Source of the DNA: Halobellus sp. LT62
GTDB lineage: Archaea > Halobacteriota > Halobacteria > Halobacteriales > Haloferacaceae
Direction: 5' to 3'
DNA: 64,000 nt
NCBI RefSeq assembly: GCF_037031285.1
Contig: NZ_JAYEZO010000001.1
Location: 1,488,001 to 1,552,000, forward strand
Part shown: positions 27,191 through 37,066 of the stretch, one piece after another
Numbering within the stretch: position 1 is the first letter of the stretch
Layout: the number at the start of each line of letters is the position of its first letter
Made by a program: the position numbers and the translations under genes
Notes under the pieces: model-generated
Databases searched by the model: none
Told to the model about the DNA's origin: nothing
What the model saw: only the letters and a program-made list of their open reading frames with translations

Positions 27191-28006
27191 TTACCGGAAG
27201 CGGTAGATCGCGAGCGCGCCGATAGCGACGATTCCGAGAAGGCCAGCGGGACCGTACAGAGTCGAGAAGCGGTCCGTCGAGAGCTCGTTCCCCCCGCTCT
27301 CTAGTTCCTCGGGGATCGCTTCGGCGGGGCCGTCGCCGCTGCCGGTGGAGGCATCGGAATCGTCGTCACCGCTCGATTCACTGCTCCCACCTGTGGACGA
27401 CTCGTCGGCGGCGTCACCGCTATCGTCGGCACCACTGTCGTCCTCGCTGTCATCGACGGGTTCCTCGACCGAATTCGAATCCGAGGAGTCCGAATCGTTC
27501 GACGACGATGCGTCATCGACCGTGAGCGTCGGTCGCTCGGCGTCCGCTACTGTGTAGGCGGCACCGTCTTCATCGCCCAACGCGCGCATATTCACGTCGA
27601 TCGCCGTCTCCCCGGCCGATTCGCCGCGGACGACGAGCGTCAGAACCGTGACGCGCCCCGTGTCGTCGGTGTCCACGAGTGCGGCGCTGACGTCGACGCC
27701 GTCGTCGCGTTCGGTGACGTTGTCGAGGCCGGGATCGCCGTGGATCGTCACGTCCTCGATGGACGCCACGTCCGGGTTCGAGAGCGTGACGGTCGCGTTG
27801 ATCGCGCCGACGCCATCGTCGGCGTTCTCGACGATCACGTCGACCTCAGTGGTCGCTCCCGAATCGAGGGTGTCGGCTTCCGGAGAGACGCCGAGATCGG
27901 TCGTGTCGGCGGCGGCCGCGACGCTGACCGCCCCGGCAAGGATCACGACGAGCGCAAGCGCGCACGCCGCGAATCGATTTCGACGTCGGGTCGTAGCCGC
28001 GGCCAT
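27191..28006 (-). CDS. Secreted cohesin-like domain protein with C-terminal membrane anchor
   Basis: A 271-residue cell-surface protein. An N-terminal signal peptide (FAACALALVVILAGAVSV) leads to one cohesin-like beta-sandwich (about 35-170) with VIVENADDGVGA and ALVDTDDTGRVTV. A 70-residue linker of Ser/Asp/Glu repeats follows, and the last 25 residues form a transmembrane helix (GPAGLLGIVAIGALAIYRF) that fixes it in the membrane with the cohesin outside. The cohesin-like domain is clearly paralogous to that of the protein upstream: both carry VxVENADxGVGA and DTDDTGxVTV. Only 6 bp separate the two genes. By analogy with cellulosomes it would be an anchoring scaffold that binds a dockerin, but binding is not shown. 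Confidence 0.85.
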   Translation of the reverse strand: MAAATTRRRNRFAACALALVVILAGAVSVAAAADTTDLGVSPEADTLDSGATTEVDVIVENADDGVGAINATVTLSNPDVASIEDVTIHGDPGLDNVTERDDGVDVSAALVDTDDTGRVTVLTLVVRGESAGETAIDVNMRALGDEDGAAYTVADAERPTLTVDDASSSNDSDSSDSNSVEEPVDDSEDDSGADDSGDAADESSTGGSSESSGDDDSDASTGSGDGPAEAIPEELESGGNELSTDRFSTLYGPAGLLGIVAIGALAIYRFR

Positions 28007-28012
28007 CGTCGA

Positions 28013-30004
28013 TCAGGCGACCTCCTCGTAGTAGAGCGTCTGCACGTCGAGAATGTCGAACTCGCCGTCGCCGTTGAAGTCGAAGGCGTCGGACGAGTCT
28101 TGGACGACGCCGCTGTCCCGCTCGGCGAACAGGAGCTGGACGTCCAGTTCGTCGACGGTGCCGTCACCGTTCACGTCCTCGTAGACGCCGTCGTTGTCGG
28201 GGTCCTGCGCGGGTTGTTCGGACGCGCCGACCACGAGCTCGGAGACACTGAGCGACGCGCCGTTGGTCTCCGTGACCTCGTACGGCTCGCCGGACTCGGT
28301 GCCGAGACTGGAGACATCGAGCGCGAGGTCGGTCGCGCCGTCGGACTCGCCGTCGACGGTCACGGTCGCGACGGTCACGGAGCCGGTGTCGTCGGTATCG
28401 AGCAGCGCCACGTCGGCGCTCGCCGAACTCCCGTCGCCCGCGACTTGGACGTCCGAGAGCGGGCCGTCGGCCGACATCTCGGAGATCGTCGCGGTCGACG
28501 TGTCGTCGACCGAGACGCCGAGGCTGTACGCGCCGACGCCGCCGTCGGCGTTCTCGACGACCACGTCGAACGTCGTCGAGCCGTTCACCGCGACGAGTTC
28601 GTCATCGGGTGACAGCGACACCGCCGTCGACAGTCCGGGTTCGGGCTCCGAGGGCTCACTGACCGTCACGGTCTCGGTGACCGTGTCGGTCGCGCCGTCG
28701 TCGTCGGTGACGGTCAGTTCGACCGTGTAGTCACCTGCCGAGTCGTACGCGTTCGTGGCTGTCTCACCGGTAGCCGTTTCACCGTCGCCGAAGTCCCACT
28801 CGTAGCTCGCGATCGAGCCGTCGGAATCCGTCGACGCCGAGGCGTCGAACGTCACCGTCTCACCCGTTTCCGGGTCCGCGGGTGACGAACTGAACGCCGC
28901 CGTGGGATCCTGATTCTCCGGGGGCTGCTCGGTCACGGCGAGCGTGCCGGTCGCGCTGTCGTCGTCGGTCGAGAGCGTCACGTCGTGATCGCCCACCGAG
29001 AGACCGCTGGTATCGACGTCGAAGCTCACCTGCTGGCTCGCGTCGCCGTCGAGCGTGACGGACTGACTGTCGACTTCGCTGCCGTCGACGTCGAGCGCGA
29101 CCGTTTGCGTGCCGGACTCGTCGCCGACGTTCTCGACTGTCGCGGTCACTTCGGCGTCGCTCCCCTGCTCGACCGGCGACTCGATATCGAGTGCCGAGAG
29201 CTGGAAGCTCGCCGGATCAGGCTGCGGCGGCGCGCTCACGGAGACGGTCTGCGTCGTCGTGTCGGTCGCGCCGTCGTCGTCGGTGACGGTCAGTTCGACC
29301 GTGTAGTCACCTGCCGAGTCGTATTCGTGTGTCGGCGACTCACCGCTGTCGGTCTCGCCGTCGCCGAAGTCCCACGCGTAGGAGGCGATCGAGCCGTCCG
29401 CGTCACTGGATCCGGACGCGTCGAAGGAGACCGTCTCACCCGCTTCGGGCGAGGACGGACTCGCGGTGAAGGACGCCGAGGGATCCTCATTCTGGTCAGG
29501 ATCTTCGACGGTGATGGTCGTCTCTGTTGAAGCTATCTCGTCGTCCTCGTTCGCGACGGCGTCATCGTCGGTCGGGTCCACGCCGGATCCCGTCGCCGAG
29601 ATCGCGTACTCGCCGGGGGCCGCGTCTTCCGGCACCTGTAGCTCGGTCGTGACCTCGTAGGTCCCCGAACTGAGCCACAGGACCGACGGGGAGTTCGACG
29701 GAAGAGCGTTGCCAGTATTGTCCTGCGGACTCGCAGTTCCACCGTCCGAGTCAGTCACCGTGCCTTCCCAACCGTCCGGGAACTCCAACTCGACGAGCGG
29801 ACCGTTAACGTCCTCCGTTGTCAGCGTCGTCGTGATGGTCACCGTATCGCCGGAATTGACCGTCGTGTTGTCTGCTGTCTGCTCGATCGAGACACTCGGA
29901 TCGGCCGCCACCGTCCCAACTGGTCCGAAGACCGAGAGGACGATCGTGAGCGCGACGAGCGCCGCGATCGACTGTCTGAGATATCCGTGTACTGTGTCGT
30001 TCAT
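28013..30004 (-). CDS. Secreted PKD/CARDB/cohesin-like protein ending in a dockerin
   Basis: A 663-residue secreted modular protein: signal peptide (1-32), an N-terminal Ig-like sheet (about 35-150), a PKD domain (about 162-255, SYAWDFGDGETDSGESPTHE), a CARDB-type sheet (about 260-355), a second PKD (about 365-460), a cohesin-like domain (about 465-595) and a dockerin (about 600-660). The dockerin has two calcium loops, DVNGDGTVDELDV and DFNGDGEFDILDV, each with the D-x-N-G-D-G-x-x-D-x-x-D pattern. It therefore combines a docking module and a cohesin-like receptor, like an adaptor scaffoldin. The start ATG is followed directly by VHGYLRQSIAALVALT, an export signal. No catalytic domain is recognised. 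Confidence 0.88.
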   Translation of the reverse strand: MNDTVHGYLRQSIAALVALTIVLSVFGPVGTVAADPSVSIEQTADNTTVNSGDTVTITTTLTTEDVNGPLVELEFPDGWEGTVTDSDGGTASPQDNTGNALPSNSPSVLWLSSGTYEVTTELQVPEDAAPGEYAISATGSGVDPTDDDAVANEDDEIASTETTITVEDPDQNEDPSASFTASPSSPEAGETVSFDASGSSDADGSIASYAWDFGDGETDSGESPTHEYDSAGDYTVELTVTDDDGATDTTTQTVSVSAPPQPDPASFQLSALDIESPVEQGSDAEVTATVENVGDESGTQTVALDVDGSEVDSQSVTLDGDASQQVSFDVDTSGLSVGDHDVTLSTDDDSATGTLAVTEQPPENQDPTAAFSSSPADPETGETVTFDASASTDSDGSIASYEWDFGDGETATGETATNAYDSAGDYTVELTVTDDDGATDTVTETVTVSEPSEPEPGLSTAVSLSPDDELVAVNGSTTFDVVVENADGGVGAYSLGVSVDDTSTATISEMSADGPLSDVQVAGDGSSASADVALLDTDDTGSVTVATVTVDGESDGATDLALDVSSLGTESGEPYEVTETNGASLSVSELVVGASEQPAQDPDNDGVYEDVNGDGTVDELDVQLLFAERDSGVVQDSSDAFDFNGDGEFDILDVQTLYYEEVA

Positions 30005-30199: not shown

Positions 30200-33100
30200 C
30201 TACTGGGAGCCGTCCTCCGATTCGATGATCTCGATGGCTCTGATCTCCGCATTCTCGGCCTCTCCTTTCTCGAAGTCGATCGTGATCGTGCCGTCGCCGT
30301 TCTCGGTCGCCGTGAACTCCTCCATCGTCCCCGTCGCGTGACCGGCGTCGGCCACGGGGTCGTACTGCGTCAGCACTTGATCGTCCTCGATGGAGACGTT
30401 GAACTGCCGGTCGCCGGGTTCTGAGGCCCCGGAGAACGAGTTGGCGAAGTAGAGCCGAACGTCGACCGTCGCGCCGGAGTCGACGTCGAACTCCCACGTG
30501 GAGTTCCCGTACCGCTCGCAGTTCCAGACCCCGTCGGGCGTCGATTCGGGCACGGTTCCGTCCGGCGAGACCGCGTCGCCGCCGCAGTAGTTATCGGCGC
30601 TGGAACTCGCGACCGACACGAGGTACGTCGAACTCGTGTCGGCGACGCCAGTCCAGTCGGGGCCGTCGTCAGTCGCGGAGACGGTCGTGCTCTCACCGGC
30701 GTTCACGCGGTGGAGGACCTGCGCGGGTTGCGGATCGTCGCCGTCGCCGGCACTCTCGTCGTACTTCAATACCACCGCGTTCGACGTTTCGCCGGTGTTT
30801 CCGCTCTCGTCCTGCTCGGCCGCGACGAAGTAGTTGAAGCCGCCCTCAGCGCCGCTGGACGACGTGTTGGTGAGAGTGACGTCGACCGTCGCCTCGCCGT
30901 TCGAGTCGAGCTGGACCGTCTGGTAGTCGACGTTTTCGGCCGTATTCGCCTCGTAGGCTTCGAGATCGTACCCGTCTGCCTGGTTAGCGAGTTCGAGTTG
31001 TCCCTCCACGTGGAGGAGTTCCACGGTCGCGCCGGGCTGTCCGGAGACCGTGACTGTCTGGCTGGCCTCGGAGACCGTCGCTGCGCTGTGGCGCGCGTCG
31101 AGATCGCCGTCGTCGAGTGAGACGTCTTGGGCTCCGAGGGTCGGCGCAGTCGGGACGCTCTCAGTCGCAGCGGCCTGTGAGCCGCCGCTGCTTCCGTCAC
31201 CGAACAGACTCGTGGTCTGTGTGGACCCGTCGGCGTACTCGACGGTCACGGTCGCGCCCGCGAGTTCCAGTCCGGAGACGGAGCCGGCTGCCCCGGTCCC
31301 GTCCGCGTTCTTGATACTCGTCGGGTCGATGTCCGTCGAGAACGCGAACGTCTCGCCGCTCTCGAAGTCGGCGAAGTCGATGACCAGTTCGTCGTACCCG
31401 TCGTCGCCGTCTTGGTCGTTATGCGGCGCGGCGAACGACCCCGATGGGTCGACCGCGCTCTCGCCGCTGTCCGGCGTGAAGCCCTTCGCACCCGCGTCGC
31501 CCGCGGTTCCCTGCGGGTCGAAGACCACGTCGGGGAACGCCGCGGAACTCAGATCGTAGGTGACGGAGGTGATCTCCTGATCGCCGGTGTTGGTGATCTC
31601 GAAGGAGCCGCCGTTGAACGTGCTCGCGTCGATGCCGCTGTTCTCGTTGACCGCGAAGTCTGCAGAGGCGGTGGCGTCACCGGAGCCACCGTCCGCGTCC
31701 GCCTCAGAGACCTCGATCGCGCTGATCTTCGCGTTGTCGTAGGTCGCCGCGAAGTCGAGGTTCAGTTCGCCGTCGGTGATCTCGGCCGTGAACGTCTCCT
31801 CGGTCGCCGTCAGCGGACCGACCTCGGCGAAGAGGTCGTAGTTCGTGAGTACCTGCTCGTCTTCGACGCTCACGTTGAACAGCCGGTCGTTCTCGTTCGT
31901 GCCGTCGTCCGGCCCGGTCGAGTCGGGCGAATCGCTGTCGGCGACGCCTTGGTAAATCTCGGCGAAGTGGAGAGTGACCTCGTACTCGCCGTCATCGAGC
32001 GGGACGTCGTAACTCAGCGGTTCGGAGTCGGGCGCGCCGCCGTAGCGCTCCGTCTGGTACAACGCGTCGTCCGTCGTCCCGTCGATCGGCTCCGTCGTGC
32101 TGTAGGTGCTGCCGCCGTCGAAGTTGGTGTCGGCTTGGTAGACGGTACCGTCCGAAGCCGTGTACTCGTCGCCGCCGCCGTTCACCGCGAAGACGACGTC
32201 ACCCGGCTGATCGGGCTCGCCGTCGCCGTCACCGGCGCTCTCGTCGTACTTCAGGACGACCGCGTTCGAGTCGAGACCGGTGTCGGAACCGGGCTCTCCC
32301 TGGGTCGCCACGAAGTAGTTGTAGCCGCCGACTTCGGTCGAGTTGAGAAGCGTGACGGGCACGTCGGCCTCGCCGTTCGAGTCGAGCGTGACCGTCTCGT
32401 AGTTCACCTGCTCGATCTTGTTGGCCTCGTAGGCCTCGATGTCGTAGCCGGGCGTGCCGTCGTACTCGGGGACGTTGCTCAGTTCGAGTTCGGCCTCGAA
32501 GTGCAGCAGCGTGGCAGTCTCGCCGGGTTCGCCCGTGACGGTCACGGTCTGGTCGGCCTCGCCAACGGTGGCCGCGCTGTGGTGGTCGCGGAGCGCGCCG
32601 TCGTCGAGGTCGACGTTCTGCACGTCGATGCTCGGTGCCGCTGGGACCGACTCGTCGAGCGTCGCTTGGACGCCGCCCGCGCTGCCATCACCGAACAGCT
32701 GGGTCTCTTGGACCCCTCCGTCGGCGTATTCGGCGCTCACCGTCGAGCGGACGAGTTCGAGACCGGAGATCGGGCCGGCCTCTTGGGAGCCGATGGTCGC
32801 GGCCTTGATGCTCGTCGGATCGTTGTCCGCCGAGAACGACACCGACTCACCGGGGTCGAAGTCGTCGAACTCGACGGTCATCACGTCGTAGCCGTCGGAG
32901 CCGTTCACGCCGTTGTGCGGCTGGCTGAACACGTCATCGTCGTCGACGCTGACGACGCCGACGCCGTCACCCGACTCCGAGTCGATGTTCAGTCCCTTCG
33001 CGGCCTGGTCGCCGGCGGTCCCGTCGGGGTCGAACACCACGTCGGGCATCGCCGACGACGAGAGGTCGAAGGTGACAGACGTTATCTGCTGGTCGCCGGT

Positions 33101-36100
33101 GTTCGTTACCTCGAAGGAGCCACCGCCGTAGGTGGACGCTTCGACGCCCGAATCGGGCGTGATCTCGACGGACGCCGAGCCGGTCGTCTCGTTGCCGCCG
33201 TCACCATCTTGCTCGACGACTGCTTCGGTCGCCCACATATTGACGAGCGTCTGGATCTCGGAGTTGCCGATGGTCTGTTCGCCGGTGTTCGGCACGTCGC
33301 TTCCGGTGGCCCACCAGTTGGTCGCCTGCTGGATCTCGGAGTTCTCGATCAGCGAGTCGTTCTCGCCGCCCATCGCCACCGATTGGGTGATAGTCAGATC
33401 GCCGTCGGTCGGTTCACCCGGACCGTCGTCCGTCGGCTGGACCGTCACGTCGACCGTGTCGGTGTCGCTGTCCTGCCCGTCGGAGACGCTGACTTGGAAG
33501 GTGAACGTCGTTTCCGACTCGACGTCGGGCGCGGTGAACGACACCTGCTCGCCGTCGCTCATATCGAGCAGCCCGTCGGGGGTTCCGGCGGTCTGCGTCC
33601 ACGTGTAACCGAGCGCGCTATCGTCGCCGTCGGGATCGGTCGATCCCGAGGCGTCGAGCGTGACCTGTTGGCCCGCGTCGACAGTGACGTCAGCGCCCGC
33701 GTCGGCCTCCGGCGGCTGGTTCTCCGGCGCGTTCACGTACTCGACGTCGAGGTTCGTCCACGTGGCGTCGAACGTCGAACCGGCTTGGTAGGACGTCGAG
33801 ATGACGCCCACCGCGGTACCGGTGTCCGAACTGTTGAGCCACGATTCGGGGATCGTCGTCGAGCCGACGAACGTCTGCTCGCCGTCCTCGGGCGTGTAGT
33901 ACGCCTCGACGGTGTTGTTGCTCGGGTACACCGTCATTTGGAGGTCGGTGTCGCTGTCGGAGCCCGCGACGGCCGGATCGTCCGGCTGTTCGACGTTCTG
34001 GAAGTTCCCGTCGGTCTCGCCGGCGAACTGGATGCCGCCGCTGCCGCCGTTCGCGGCGGTGATGAGTTTCAGGTAGTTGTCCTGATCGCCGTTGCCGATG
34101 TGGATCCCCGCACCCTGGTAGTTCGTGGGATCTTCGGGGAGACCGTTCACCGTCGTCGAGACCGTGAACGGCTCCTCGGGCGCGTCGAATCCGCGCTGGA
34201 ACGCGTACTGCTGGTCGTTGTTCGTCGCGTCACCGGTCGGCACGTCTTCGACCGTGAGGACCTGCGCCGCGCCGCCGACCGTCAGCTGGTCGGGATCGTA
34301 GAGGTCCTGATAATCGGTCTCACCGTTCGTCATCAGGCCGGTCCAGCCCTGACCGTTCTCGCCGAACAGTTGCGTCTCCGAGAAGTCCATCTGGATCGGC
34401 AGGGTCGTCGACGTACCGTCGTCGGGATCCACGGCGAAGTGATCGCTCGTGTCGGGCTGTCCGTCGTTGTCGTCGTCGGGATCGTTCAGGTTCGATGTGC
34501 CGTCGTCGTCGAAGTCGGGGGGCGTCGAGGCGGCCGAGCACGGATCCGTGCCGGCATCGATCTCGTCGGCGTTGTCGTAGCCGTCGCCGTCCTCGTCGAG
34601 CGACGCGTCGTCGGCACCGGTACACACCGGATCGGTTCCGTCGCTGTCGTAGTCGTTCGGCTCGAACACGGTGAGATCACCGCGGGCGGTCCAGACGGTT
34701 CCCGGGAAGGGACCGTCGTCGCCCTGTGCGGCGATTCCCAGCGCGCTGAGGTCGCTGAAGAAGTTGCTCTCCTGATCGGTGACGCTCGTTCCGCCGGCGT
34801 CGAGTTGGACGCGCTCGACCGAACTGGAGCCGACGACGACGAGCAAGTCGCCCTGCATCGAACCGCCGAAGTTCGAGGCGGTGTACTCGTCCATTCCGCC
34901 GGTCCAGCCGAACGTGTCACCGAGGGAGTTGTCCTCGGAGGGGTCTTGGTAGTCGCACTCGATCGGGTTCACTTCCGAGGCGGGAACGGGGCTGTTCGAC
35001 TCGTTGATGTCGAAGATGACGTTCCCGTCGGCGTCGTAGATGTCAGCACCGGTCGGGTTCGCCCGGATCGGCGCGGGGTGACCGCCGTAGGAGTCCTCGG
35101 TCGCGAGGTGGAGCTGGTCACCGGAGCCGCCGCCGGGATCGTTCGGCTCGTTCGTACAGATTCCGCTCGGCCCCTCGTTGACGGGCTGGCCGCCCCAGCC
35201 GCCGTTGGGACCGTTGTCGATGACATAGAGCTGATCGCCTTCGGAGAGCACGAGGTCGTAGGGGTTCCGGTATCCGGTCGAGTAGACCTGCACCGGACCG
35301 TCCTCGACCCACTTGGCCTGGTTGATGCCGTCGTTGCCGCCGAAGGGCAGGTCGTCACCCTCCGTGCCGTCGTCGTTCTGGATCGTCGGGATCGCATACA
35401 GGAAGTCGAGGCTCGGATAGCTGCTGTCGTAGTCCTGCAGATCCTTCGCTTGGTAGTTCTGCTCGATCTGTGCCAGATCGATTTCGAGGACGGCCGCCGA
35501 CAGCGCGTACTCGGCCGTGTGGCCGAAGTTGTTACTCGGCGCTCCCTGGTTGGTGTGACCGCCCTGTGCGACGTACAGCGTCTCGCCGTCGTCGGCCAGA
35601 TCGAGTCCGTTCGTCGCGTGGTTCTCCTCCGAGCGCGGCAGCCCGAGCACCATCACGTCGTGCTCGACGCCGTTGAGGGTGTCTCCGCTACCCCAGTCGA
35701 ACGTAAGCCGGGAGATCGACCCCGAGTTAGTGTCGGTGTCGTCGTCGTCTTCTCCGACGTCGATTGTCGGGTCGCTGGAGGAGACGTACACGACCGGCTC
35801 CGCCGCCGTCCCGCCGACCGTCAGGCCGGTGATCTGGCGGTTAGTCTCGCCGGGGACGTAGGTCCCGAAGTCGTCGTGGTTCGGAATATCTTGGATAAGG
35901 TCGATCGACTCCTGCGATTCGACGCTGTAGTCGTTCTCGCCCTCGCGGGTAACGTTCAGCGCGTACACCATTCCGCTCTGCTGGGCGACGTAGAGCCGGT
36001 CGTCCGGACCGAATTCAAGCGCCGTCAGCGCGCCCTCACCGAAGCCCTGCAGGCTGCTCTTGCCGAAACCGACTTCCGCCGTGCTCGTTCCCGCTCCGGA

Positions 36101-37066
36101 GAGATCGACGCTCAGCGGGGAGTTGCTCCCCGAGTGATCGACTTCGAGCGTTCCCGATGCCGACTCGGCGTCCTCGGGCGCGAACGTCACGGGGACGTCC
36201 GCGGACTCGCCGGGGACGAGCGTCGTCTGCGACGCCGATCCCGCGGAGAACGCGCTGTCCCCGGAGACCGAGACGTCGTCGATCGTGATGTCGGCGTCGC
36301 CGTCGCCGCCGAGGTTCGTCAGCGTGACCGACTCTGTTTCGGTGTCGTCGACGAGCACGCTACCGAAGTCGACGGCGGACGGGCCGCCGAGCGTGTCGGG
36401 CTCGGGCTCGGACTCGACGATCTCGATCGCGCTGATCTTCGCGTTGTCCTCGACGTTCGTGAGATCGATGTCGATCTCGCCGTCGTCGGGCGTGACGGTG
36501 GAAGACTTCAGCACGCCGACGTCGTGACCGACGTCAGCGTGGATGTCGTAGCCGTCGAGCACCTGCTCGCCATCGACGGTGGCGTCGAAGACCCGCTCAC
36601 CGTCGGCGGTCTGGTAGATCTCCGCGAAGTAGAGGCGGACCTCGTACGTCTGGCCGCTCTCGACGCCGTCGGAGAACGTCCACTCCTGTTCGCCGTACAC
36701 TTCCGACTGGAACGCGCTTTCGGGCGTGTCAGCCGGAACTGAGGCGTCCAGCGAGATCGAGTCGCCGGTGTTGAACGTGGAGGTGCTACCGGAGTGGTAC
36801 TGCTCCCACTCGCCCGTCCAGTCGGGGCCGCTGTCCGCCGCGACGGTGTCGCCTCCCGCGTTTACGCGGGCGATCACCGCCCCTGCCGCGGTTGTGTCGT
36901 CTACTTGGGCCGCGGTCAGCGTCCCGTCGTTGATGTCTGTCGCGCGCACGTCGCCGTCGTGTGTGCCGGTCGCGGCCGACGCACCGGCGAGTCCCGCCAT
37001 CGGCGACGTGATCATAAATATCGCCGCCAAGAGGACTAACGCGCGCCTCGTCGTACTATTCGTCAT
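30200..37066 (-). CDS. Giant secreted mosaic protein: malectin-like, HYDIN-like, sugar-dehydrogenase propeller, LamG and PKD modules
   Basis: A 2288-residue extracellular protein. Order by residue: signal peptide 1-32; malectin-like 1 (64-217); HYDIN/ASPM-like sheet (225-325); glucose/sorbosone-dehydrogenase-type beta-propeller (335-800, GEGALTALEFGPDDRLYVA and ENHATNGLDLADDGETLYVA); thrombospondin-3-like Asp-rich calcium loops (805-880); LamG/DUF1080-like jelly roll (890-1113); PKD/REJ (1117-1212); a duplicated NSEIQxxxNxWAT helix pair (1235-1282); module R1 (1299-1610); malectin-like 2 (1625-1787); module R2 (1802-2105); malectin-like 3 (2115-2285). R1 and R2 are tandem-type duplicates (SGVEASTYGGGSFEVTNTGD against SGIDASTFNGGSFEITNTGD). 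Malectin and LamG parts bind glycans and the propeller may oxidise a sugar using PQQ or a metal, so a polysaccharide-active or adhesive surface role is inferred. No C-terminal anchor is present. Confidence 0.9.
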   Translation of the reverse strand: MTNSTTRRALVLLAAIFMITSPMAGLAGASAATGTHDGDVRATDINDGTLTAAQVDDTTAAGAVIARVNAGGDTVAADSGPDWTGEWEQYHSGSTSTFNTGDSISLDASVPADTPESAFQSEVYGEQEWTFSDGVESGQTYEVRLYFAEIYQTADGERVFDATVDGEQVLDGYDIHADVGHDVGVLKSSTVTPDDGEIDIDLTNVEDNAKISAIEIVESEPEPDTLGGPSAVDFGSVLVDDTETESVTLTNLGGDGDADITIDDVSVSGDSAFSAGSASQTTLVPGESADVPVTFAPEDAESASGTLEVDHSGSNSPLSVDLSGAGTSTAEVGFGKSSLQGFGEGALTALEFGPDDRLYVAQQSGMVYALNVTREGENDYSVESQESIDLIQDIPNHDDFGTYVPGETNRQITGLTVGGTAAEPVVYVSSSDPTIDVGEDDDDTDTNSGSISRLTFDWGSGDTLNGVEHDVMVLGLPRSEENHATNGLDLADDGETLYVAQGGHTNQGAPSNNFGHTAEYALSAAVLEIDLAQIEQNYQAKDLQDYDSSYPSLDFLYAIPTIQNDDGTEGDDLPFGGNDGINQAKWVEDGPVQVYSTGYRNPYDLVLSEGDQLYVIDNGPNGGWGGQPVNEGPSGICTNEPNDPGGGSGDQLHLATEDSYGGHPAPIRANPTGADIYDADGNVIFDINESNSPVPASEVNPIECDYQDPSEDNSLGDTFGWTGGMDEYTASNFGGSMQGDLLVVVGSSSVERVQLDAGGTSVTDQESNFFSDLSALGIAAQGDDGPFPGTVWTARGDLTVFEPNDYDSDGTDPVCTGADDASLDEDGDGYDNADEIDAGTDPCSAASTPPDFDDDGTSNLNDPDDDNDGQPDTSDHFAVDPDDGTSTTLPIQMDFSETQLFGENGQGWTGLMTNGETDYQDLYDPDQLTVGGAAQVLTVEDVPTGDATNNDQQYAFQRGFDAPEEPFTVSTTVNGLPEDPTNYQGAGIHIGNGDQDNYLKLITAANGGSGGIQFAGETDGNFQNVEQPDDPAVAGSDSDTDLQMTVYPSNNTVEAYYTPEDGEQTFVGSTTIPESWLNSSDTGTAVGVISTSYQAGSTFDATWTNLDVEYVNAPENQPPEADAGADVTVDAGQQVTLDASGSTDPDGDDSALGYTWTQTAGTPDGLLDMSDGEQVSFTAPDVESETTFTFQVSVSDGQDSDTDTVDVTVQPTDDGPGEPTDGDLTITQSVAMGGENDSLIENSEIQQATNWWATGSDVPNTGEQTIGNSEIQTLVNMWATEAVVEQDGDGGNETTGSASVEITPDSGVEASTYGGGSFEVTNTGDQQITSVTFDLSSSAMPDVVFDPDGTAGDQAAKGLNIDSESGDGVGVVSVDDDDVFSQPHNGVNGSDGYDVMTVEFDDFDPGESVSFSADNDPTSIKAATIGSQEAGPISGLELVRSTVSAEYADGGVQETQLFGDGSAGGVQATLDESVPAAPSIDVQNVDLDDGALRDHHSAATVGEADQTVTVTGEPGETATLLHFEAELELSNVPEYDGTPGYDIEAYEANKIEQVNYETVTLDSNGEADVPVTLLNSTEVGGYNYFVATQGEPGSDTGLDSNAVVLKYDESAGDGDGEPDQPGDVVFAVNGGGDEYTASDGTVYQADTNFDGGSTYSTTEPIDGTTDDALYQTERYGGAPDSEPLSYDVPLDDGEYEVTLHFAEIYQGVADSDSPDSTGPDDGTNENDRLFNVSVEDEQVLTNYDLFAEVGPLTATEETFTAEITDGELNLDFAATYDNAKISAIEVSEADADGGSGDATASADFAVNENSGIDASTFNGGSFEITNTGDQEITSVTYDLSSAAFPDVVFDPQGTAGDAGAKGFTPDSGESAVDPSGSFAAPHNDQDGDDGYDELVIDFADFESGETFAFSTDIDPTSIKNADGTGAAGSVSGLELAGATVTVEYADGSTQTTSLFGDGSSGGSQAAATESVPTAPTLGAQDVSLDDGDLDARHSAATVSEASQTVTVSGQPGATVELLHVEGQLELANQADGYDLEAYEANTAENVDYQTVQLDSNGEATVDVTLTNTSSSGAEGGFNYFVAAEQDESGNTGETSNAVVLKYDESAGDGDDPQPAQVLHRVNAGESTTVSATDDGPDWTGVADTSSTYLVSVASSSADNYCGGDAVSPDGTVPESTPDGVWNCERYGNSTWEFDVDSGATVDVRLYFANSFSGASEPGDRQFNVSIEDDQVLTQYDPVADAGHATGTMEEFTATENGDGTITIDFEKGEAENAEIRAIEIIESEDGSQ

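Follow-up and report, generated by a model that had tools for sequence, protein, structure and literature searches.

A three-gene cluster in Halobellus sp. LT62 encodes a secreted giant, P0001, which we read as a glycan-binding sugar oxidase that would be tethered to the cell surface, at a probability of roughly 0.7 and with both tethering and catalysis predicted. P0001 is most likely held through a segment of its own, DOCL, that binds the V domain of the neighboring adaptor P0002, with a cohesin and a dockerin forming the next link to the membrane. V, which is NEW3-like, and DOCL, a two-repeat and calcium-free segment, probably constitute a previously unrecognized, type-switchable docking pair across Halobacteria, one that would be interchangeable with cohesin-dockerin and through which secreted giants and enzymes would be attached to membrane-anchored scaffolds. 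The analyzed window is the whole 64,000-nucleotide stretch of contig, and sequence identity points to Halobellus captivus and H. rufus as the named neighbors. Features are collected in Table 1.

Table 1. Positions of the cluster features in the window and of DOCL/V units at other loci (locus identifiers precede their positions).
Feature	Residues (aa)	Positions	Strand	Remarks
Giant P0001	2288 aa	30200..37066	-	Secreted, signal peptide; ATG start
Malectin 1	84-220	36407..36817	-	Pfam
HYDIN/choice-of-anchor-D type Ig domain	221-328 (Pfam match 230-324)	36083..36406	-	
GSDH-type propeller	329-805	34652..36082	-	AlphaFold2 model, structure matches, hhalign
H483 codon	483	35618..35620	-	Aligns with catalytic-motif His of GSDH
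R600-N601 codons	600-601	35264..35269	-	G-x-R-N motif of GSDH
TSP3-like Asp-rich calcium loops	815-890	34397..34624	-	3fby and 1yo8 matches; invariant Asp
ConA/LamG-like sandwich	890-1118	33713..34399	-	Model and structure matches
PKD domain, K319L-like	1119-1215 (Pfam match 1123-1209)	33422..33712	-	
DOCL, two-repeat docking-like segment	1221-1287	33206..33406	-	
X-Y module copy 1	1290-1612	32231..33199	-	Sequence duplication
Malectin 2	1620-1790	31697..32209	-	
X-Y module copy 2	1795-2115	30722..31684	-	
Malectin 3	2120-2288	30203..30709	-	Pfam
Adaptor P0002	663 aa	28013..30004	-	Signal peptide, V, PKD, CARDB, PKD, cohesin, C-terminal dockerin
V domain of P0002	33-170	29495..29908	-	NEW3-like; predicted DOCL receptor
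Cohesin of P0002	457-596	28217..28636	-	Model
Type I dockerin of P0002	601-663	28016..28204	-	Pfam and alignment
Anchor P0003	271 aa	27191..28006	-	Signal peptide, cohesin, acidic linker, C-terminal membrane helix
Cohesin of P0003	33-171	27494..27910	-	Homology, profile match
Two-gene DOCL/V unit		L200:5459-7139		First protein ends in DOCL
Two-gene DOCL/V unit		L202:4389-6033		First protein ends in DOCL
Two-gene DOCL/V unit		L206:5742-8182		First protein ends in DOCL
Two-gene DOCL/V unit		L210:3851-6636		First protein ends in DOCL

The reading frame of P0001 is intact, with 2303 codons from stop to stop and no internal stop, and its domains run from the signal peptide through MAL1, HYDIN-Ig, propeller, TSP3-like loops, ConA-like sandwich, PKD, DOCL, X-Y, MAL2, and X-Y to MAL3. 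All parts of the mosaic listed in the preliminary description (three malectins, HYDIN, propeller, calcium loops, LamG-like, and PKD) were found by Pfam and modeling; the profile search that it proposed matched Malectin three times as well as HYDIN and PKD, with the propeller below the Pfam cut-off. The Malectin (PF11721) matches (9.4e-63, 211.5 bits against a cut-off of 23, each copy above the cut-off) are the only three in the genome. By structure comparison, the calcium loops matched thrombospondin/COMP repeats (3fby, 1yo8) and the LamG-like part matched ConA-like sandwiches (3mep, 3o12); propeller, loops, and sandwich form one conserved unit. We also found a duplicated module of ~320 aa, X-Y, that was missing from the earlier list; it matched no Pfam family, and in haloarchaeal giants, it always sits between malectins. 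P0001 is rich in acidic residues (12.5% D, 7.3% E) and poor in lysine (0.7% K), the strong acidity expected for a haloarchaeal protein. As had been claimed, P0001 has no C-terminal anchor: the signal peptide is its sole hydrophobic stretch, and malectin 3 forms the C-terminus. Antisense to the gene lies a 1776-aa frame (window:31412-36742, forward strand), a GC-rich mirror frame with no coding evidence.

The P0001 propeller scored 18.2 bits against the GSDH profile PF07995, below its cut-off of 25, though 26 of the 27 haloarchaeal homologues match that profile (best 1.7e-7). Because phmmer searches of the PDB with the propeller gave no match and profile searches gave only a weak one to 2ism, a structure model was needed. 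An AlphaFold2 single-chain model of aa 329-1118, built with 66 aligned relatives, reached pLDDT 90.0 and pTM 0.88. Its best propeller match was archaeal 3a9g (Z 28.1, 300 residues aligned), followed at Z 22-28 by 7cgz, 2ism (Z 26.8), PQQ-bound 3das (Z 26.1), AA12, and sGDH; generic propellers (NHL) matched at Z about 22. The model thus predicts the six-bladed quinoprotein sugar-dehydrogenase fold. The propeller shares this fold and the aligned His and Arg-Asn motifs with the PQQ-dependent soluble aldose sugar dehydrogenases (3a9g, 2ism, 3das, 2g8s; PF07995) and AA12, from which it differs in its great divergence (about 16-20% identity), its larger size, its score under the Pfam cut-off, and its place within a giant.

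Aligned by hhalign with genuine haloarchaeal GSDHs (probability 88%, E 3e-6, 326 columns), the propeller has the catalytic-motif His and the Arg-Asn pair in register. We assessed the PQQ site on these residues, and P0001 carries them. None of the 67 sequences, drawn from archaea, Bacteroidota, Planctomycetes, Acidimicrobiia, Nitrospina, and other groups, departs from H483, R600, and N601, and R410, R478, E481, H663, and R668 are likewise invariant. The preliminary description had named missing propeller active-site residues as grounds for abandoning its proposal; since these three positions are both invariant and in register with GSDH, the residues are there. Its coupling of a glycan-binding protein to a sugar-dehydrogenase-type propeller outside the cell accordingly stands at the level of sequence and fold. 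A PqqC profile search gave no match, nor did its control.

Whether such a propeller is still an enzyme can be argued from the same data. It could have lost catalysis, or never had it, and serve as a glycan- or protein-binding platform, making P0001 a tethered adhesin or matrix protein; we consider this possible but clearly the less likely reading. The subthreshold Pfam score, the NYGWP motif of GSDH that reads YGGHP in P0001, and the lack of any encoded redox partner in the three-gene cluster would all suit it, as would the match at Z 20.4 to HHIP propellers, which are non-enzymatic and related in fold. However, active families score better (Z 25-28), a scaffold would not need buried polar H483 and R600-N601 to stay invariant across archaeal and bacterial sequences, and the alternative giant that occupies the same chromosomal site in other Halobellus genomes carries canonical GSDH domains. 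We therefore retain the sugar oxidase as the preferred reading.

The preliminary description had placed P0001 beside a cohesin/dockerin pair, and this neighborhood proved real. The P0002 dockerin has two DxNxDG-loop repeats and scores 30.9 bits against Dockerin_1 (cut-off 22.9), which identifies it as type I. The P0002 cohesin was modeled at pLDDT 93, and nearly all of the top 50 structure matches of this model are cohesins, the best being 1g1k (Z 14.3) and archaeal 2xdh (Z 13.5). At E 0.01, the Pfam Cohesin profile matches one of 47 sequences and misses the P0002 domain, although the modeled fold is that of a cohesin. P0003, previously unnoticed, brings a second cohesin and a C-terminal membrane helix; this cohesin is 36% identical to that of P0002 and is assigned its fold by homology alone. 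Gaps of 195 bases between P0001 and P0002 and 6 bases between P0002 and P0003 make a single transcript plausible. The genome holds one DOCL, one V (above 1e-3), one dockerin, and two cohesins, all within these three genes. The P0002 cohesin could accept the dockerin of another P0002, giving chain growth, or compete with P0003.

We infer that DOCL binds V, that the dockerin of P0002 pairs with the cohesin of P0003, that P0001 sits at the surface, and that it oxidizes sugar; these steps would work together as follows. The three malectin domains of P0001 would hold glycan, and the GSDH-type propeller would oxidize sugar ends or side groups brought within its reach, with electrons going to an acceptor. 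The internal DOCL would plug into the N-terminal V of P0002, and the C-terminal calcium dockerin of P0002 would plug into the P0003 cohesin. With the C-terminal helix of P0003 sitting in the membrane, P0001 would be held outside the cell.

V scores 26.0 bits against NEW3/NPCBM_assoc (PF10633; cut-off 24.4), and all 20 V domains match this family; V belongs to a common Ig-like class, and weak V matches may be unrelated. A divergent cohesin was considered for V and found unsupported (hhalign 2.6%). In haloarchaeal giants, DOCL lies between the PKD domain (or an extra malectin) and an X-Y module. Its repeats have the dockerin-helix spacing I-x-x-x-E-I-Q-x-x-I, but as a recognizable calcium dockerin DOCL fails: Pfam gave no dockerin match, hhalign against the dockerins of these loci gave a probability of 0.4%, and the loop aspartates are missing, most clearly in repeat 2. 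PDB profile matches of DOCL to gp120 and Pfam matches to DUF3717 (up to 4e-5) were judged to be chance. The docking-like segment that the preliminary description had supposed to hold P0001 does exist in the sequence; it is internal, and the best-supported partner is the V of P0002 rather than a cohesin, with the cohesin/dockerin pair as a second link.

DOCL might nonetheless, as a degenerate dockerin, attach straight to a cohesin, that of P0002 or that of P0003, leaving V a passive Ig spacer. The helix spacing would fit this, as would the position of DOCL where the split Halogranum giants described below have a canonical dockerin, and both cohesins otherwise have no client besides the P0002 dockerin. 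We regard it as improbable, given the failed profile comparison and, above all, the company that DOCL keeps across genomes and the partner with which it varies.

All 21 loci with DOCL also have V, if L212 is taken to continue the broken contig L048; six other loci have neither. In a class-wide scan of 391 genomes for DOCL and V at E <= 1e-8, V occurred in 35 of 36 DOCL genomes against 25 of 355 others (Fisher p 1.6e-32, kinship being ignored in these counts). V lies within 15 kb of 42 of 50 DOCL sites, against 1.6% by chance; of the eight remaining sites, one sits where a contig breaks off and three have weaker V matches close by. In six units from other genera (L200, L202-L204, L206, and L210), a short DOCL protein adjoins a V protein that ends in a membrane helix of its own. 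At L200-L204, L206, and L210, DOCL and V occur together in the absence of any cohesin, V itself lying on a membrane-anchored protein, which speaks against a degenerate dockerin.

We then compared distances over 18 mutually related loci. The DOCL and V distances correlate at 0.54, and a partial Mantel test conditioned on the propeller leaves this at 0.54 (p 0.0005, an approximate permutation value), whereas DOCL and cohesin correlate at 0.06 (partial -0.02). DOCL variation thus tracks V and not cohesin, contrary to what direct cohesin binding would predict. V does not track its own chain either, correlating at 0.10 with the cohesin of the same protein; the propeller-V correlation is 0.14. Near-identical loci differ sharply in these two modules. 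Between L043 and L045, propeller, cohesin, and dockerin are 95, 94, and 89% identical, and DOCL and V 60 and 32%; the corresponding values are 98, 84, and 95% with 44 and 41% for L046 and L047, and 89, 86, and 87% with 63 and 45% for the window and L034. The window and L051 share a V type (81%) and alone have N, not D or another residue, after "IE" and at the matching site of repeat 2. A shared V type together with shared DOCL residues is what a specific DOCL-V contact predicts.

Such covariation could also arise without contact, through linked cassette exchange or phage or grazer pressure, with P0001 free or held by its malectins on S-layer glycans. Module exchange is indeed common, as seen in L043 and L045, which also diverge in Malectin 1 and in the malectin that precedes DOCL, and malectins alone could hold P0001 to cell-surface glycan. 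Yet the exchanged stretches are not contiguous: in L043/L045 and L046/L047, the roughly 1000 residues separating DOCL from V are mostly 80-100% identical, which means that the exchange was not of one block. The same DOCL and V types also recur together on different backgrounds (L045, L047, and L049), V is independent of its chain as shown above, and adaptors that bear V on one terminus and, on the opposite one, DOCL or a dockerin (L198, L199, and L059) fit only a chain. We judge covariation without contact to be rather improbable and keep DOCL-V docking as the preferred reading. As a separate observation, the malectin exchange between the near-identical giants of L043 and L045 (aa 41-240 and 1241-1400) suggests, on sequence grounds, shuffled glycan specificity.

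A genome scan returned 436 relatives, mostly bacterial. Within the family, the distribution of the propeller protein is patchy (27 of 170 genomes; 6 of 18 in the genus Halobellus), and a midpoint-rooted tree left some haloarchaeal propellers outside a single clade. The cluster recurs in 24 of the 27 haloarchaeal loci, with outer flanks that differ outside Halobellus; in these 24, a P0002-like adaptor follows the giant, and further cohesin genes follow where the contig allows. In the remaining loci (L052, L056, and L058), the giants have neither DOCL nor dockerin and the cluster is absent too. Where the adaptor starts with a cohesin that replaces V (L053-L055), the giant lacks DOCL and ends in a canonical dockerin instead, which again argues against DOCL as a cohesin ligand. 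In Halogranum (L040 and L041), the giant is split into two genes exactly at the DOCL site; a canonical dockerin closes the N-half, and a cohesin followed by DOCL opens the C-half. The order at L059 (giant-DOCL, V-...-dockerin, cohesin-cohesin-dockerin, cohesin) reads as a putative longer docking chain.

Two Halobellus genomes with no P0001-type giant (L198:3-10709 and L199:2-10333) carry an unrelated 3.5-kaa giant at the same chromosomal site, adjoining the same phosphosugar-mutase-like gene as the P0001 cluster. This giant has two canonical GSDH domains, seven malectins, X-Y modules, and DOCL; downstream lie a DOCL protein with LamG and NPCBM, adaptors of the forms V-V-DOCL and V-V-cohesin-dockerin, and a cohesin anchor. 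Here, the cargo is replaced on a shared, putative docking cluster.

Several further proteins deserve mention. A Halogranum metallophosphoesterase that carries CBM96 and has DOCL at its C-terminus (L208:3785-5887), encoded far from any V gene, is a candidate in-trans DOCL client. At L213 and L214, weaker V proteins with a membrane helix sit beside proteins ending in short paired helices (VLEIIQAYNENN and ELNQLLNSYLSG), tails that look like further docking types. Two-cohesin CARDB proteins of Halogranum (L040:97-5240 and L041:2553-5735) have a duplicated C-terminal module (YTLDEIAHAKY...YDAQF) of no recognized family, also found in L043-L045 and L211.

Bacterial giants of the malectin/choice-of-anchor-D/GSDH type provide the closest comparison. 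Those of Pontibacter (L112), Sphingobacteriales (L099), and Aeoliella (L096) are homologous to P0001 in the propeller-TSP3-ConA core (identity of about 43-50% over 790 aa), and the bacterial giants examined have malectins and HYDIN domains, as does P0001. Two Bacteroidota giants end in a T9SS sorting tail, whereas haloarchaeal giants have DOCL or a dockerin plus a cohesin cluster instead. The domain mosaic itself is therefore not new and is widespread in bacteria; the haloarchaeal particularity would be the replacement of the sorting tail. Archaeal cohesins and dockerins are already known from Archaeoglobus fulgidus (2xdh) and ANME archaea (PMC9012536). P0002 and P0003 have in common with these systems, and with bacterial cellulosomes, the cohesin fold, a canonical dockerin, and a two-tier adaptor-anchor logic; they differ in that the genome has a single client and DOCL-V is at the predicted client step. 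A cellulosome, in which a scaffold carries several polysaccharide-degrading enzymes via dockerins, is not what we found: the P0001-P0003 cluster encodes no glycoside hydrolase, and the genome-wide complement is one DOCL, one dockerin, and two cohesins. In the literature searched, which covered few subscription journals, no docking role is recorded for NEW3/NPCBM_assoc and haloarchaeal cohesin/dockerin or malectin proteins are not described; an earlier report is possible.

How haloarchaea keep anchor-less secreted proteins on the cell is largely an open question, and this locus offers a testable wiring diagram in which each module is assigned a predicted partner, in one genome without competing parts. 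If V and DOCL bind, they would be a second docking system beside cohesin-dockerin, one functioning in near-saturated salt, and the natural type-switch pairs would reveal the residues that set specificity. A search with the DOCL profile could then turn up further clients, such as the Halogranum metallophosphoesterase. A sugar-oxidizing propeller, rather than a hydrolase, would in that case stand at the end of an archaeal scaffold.
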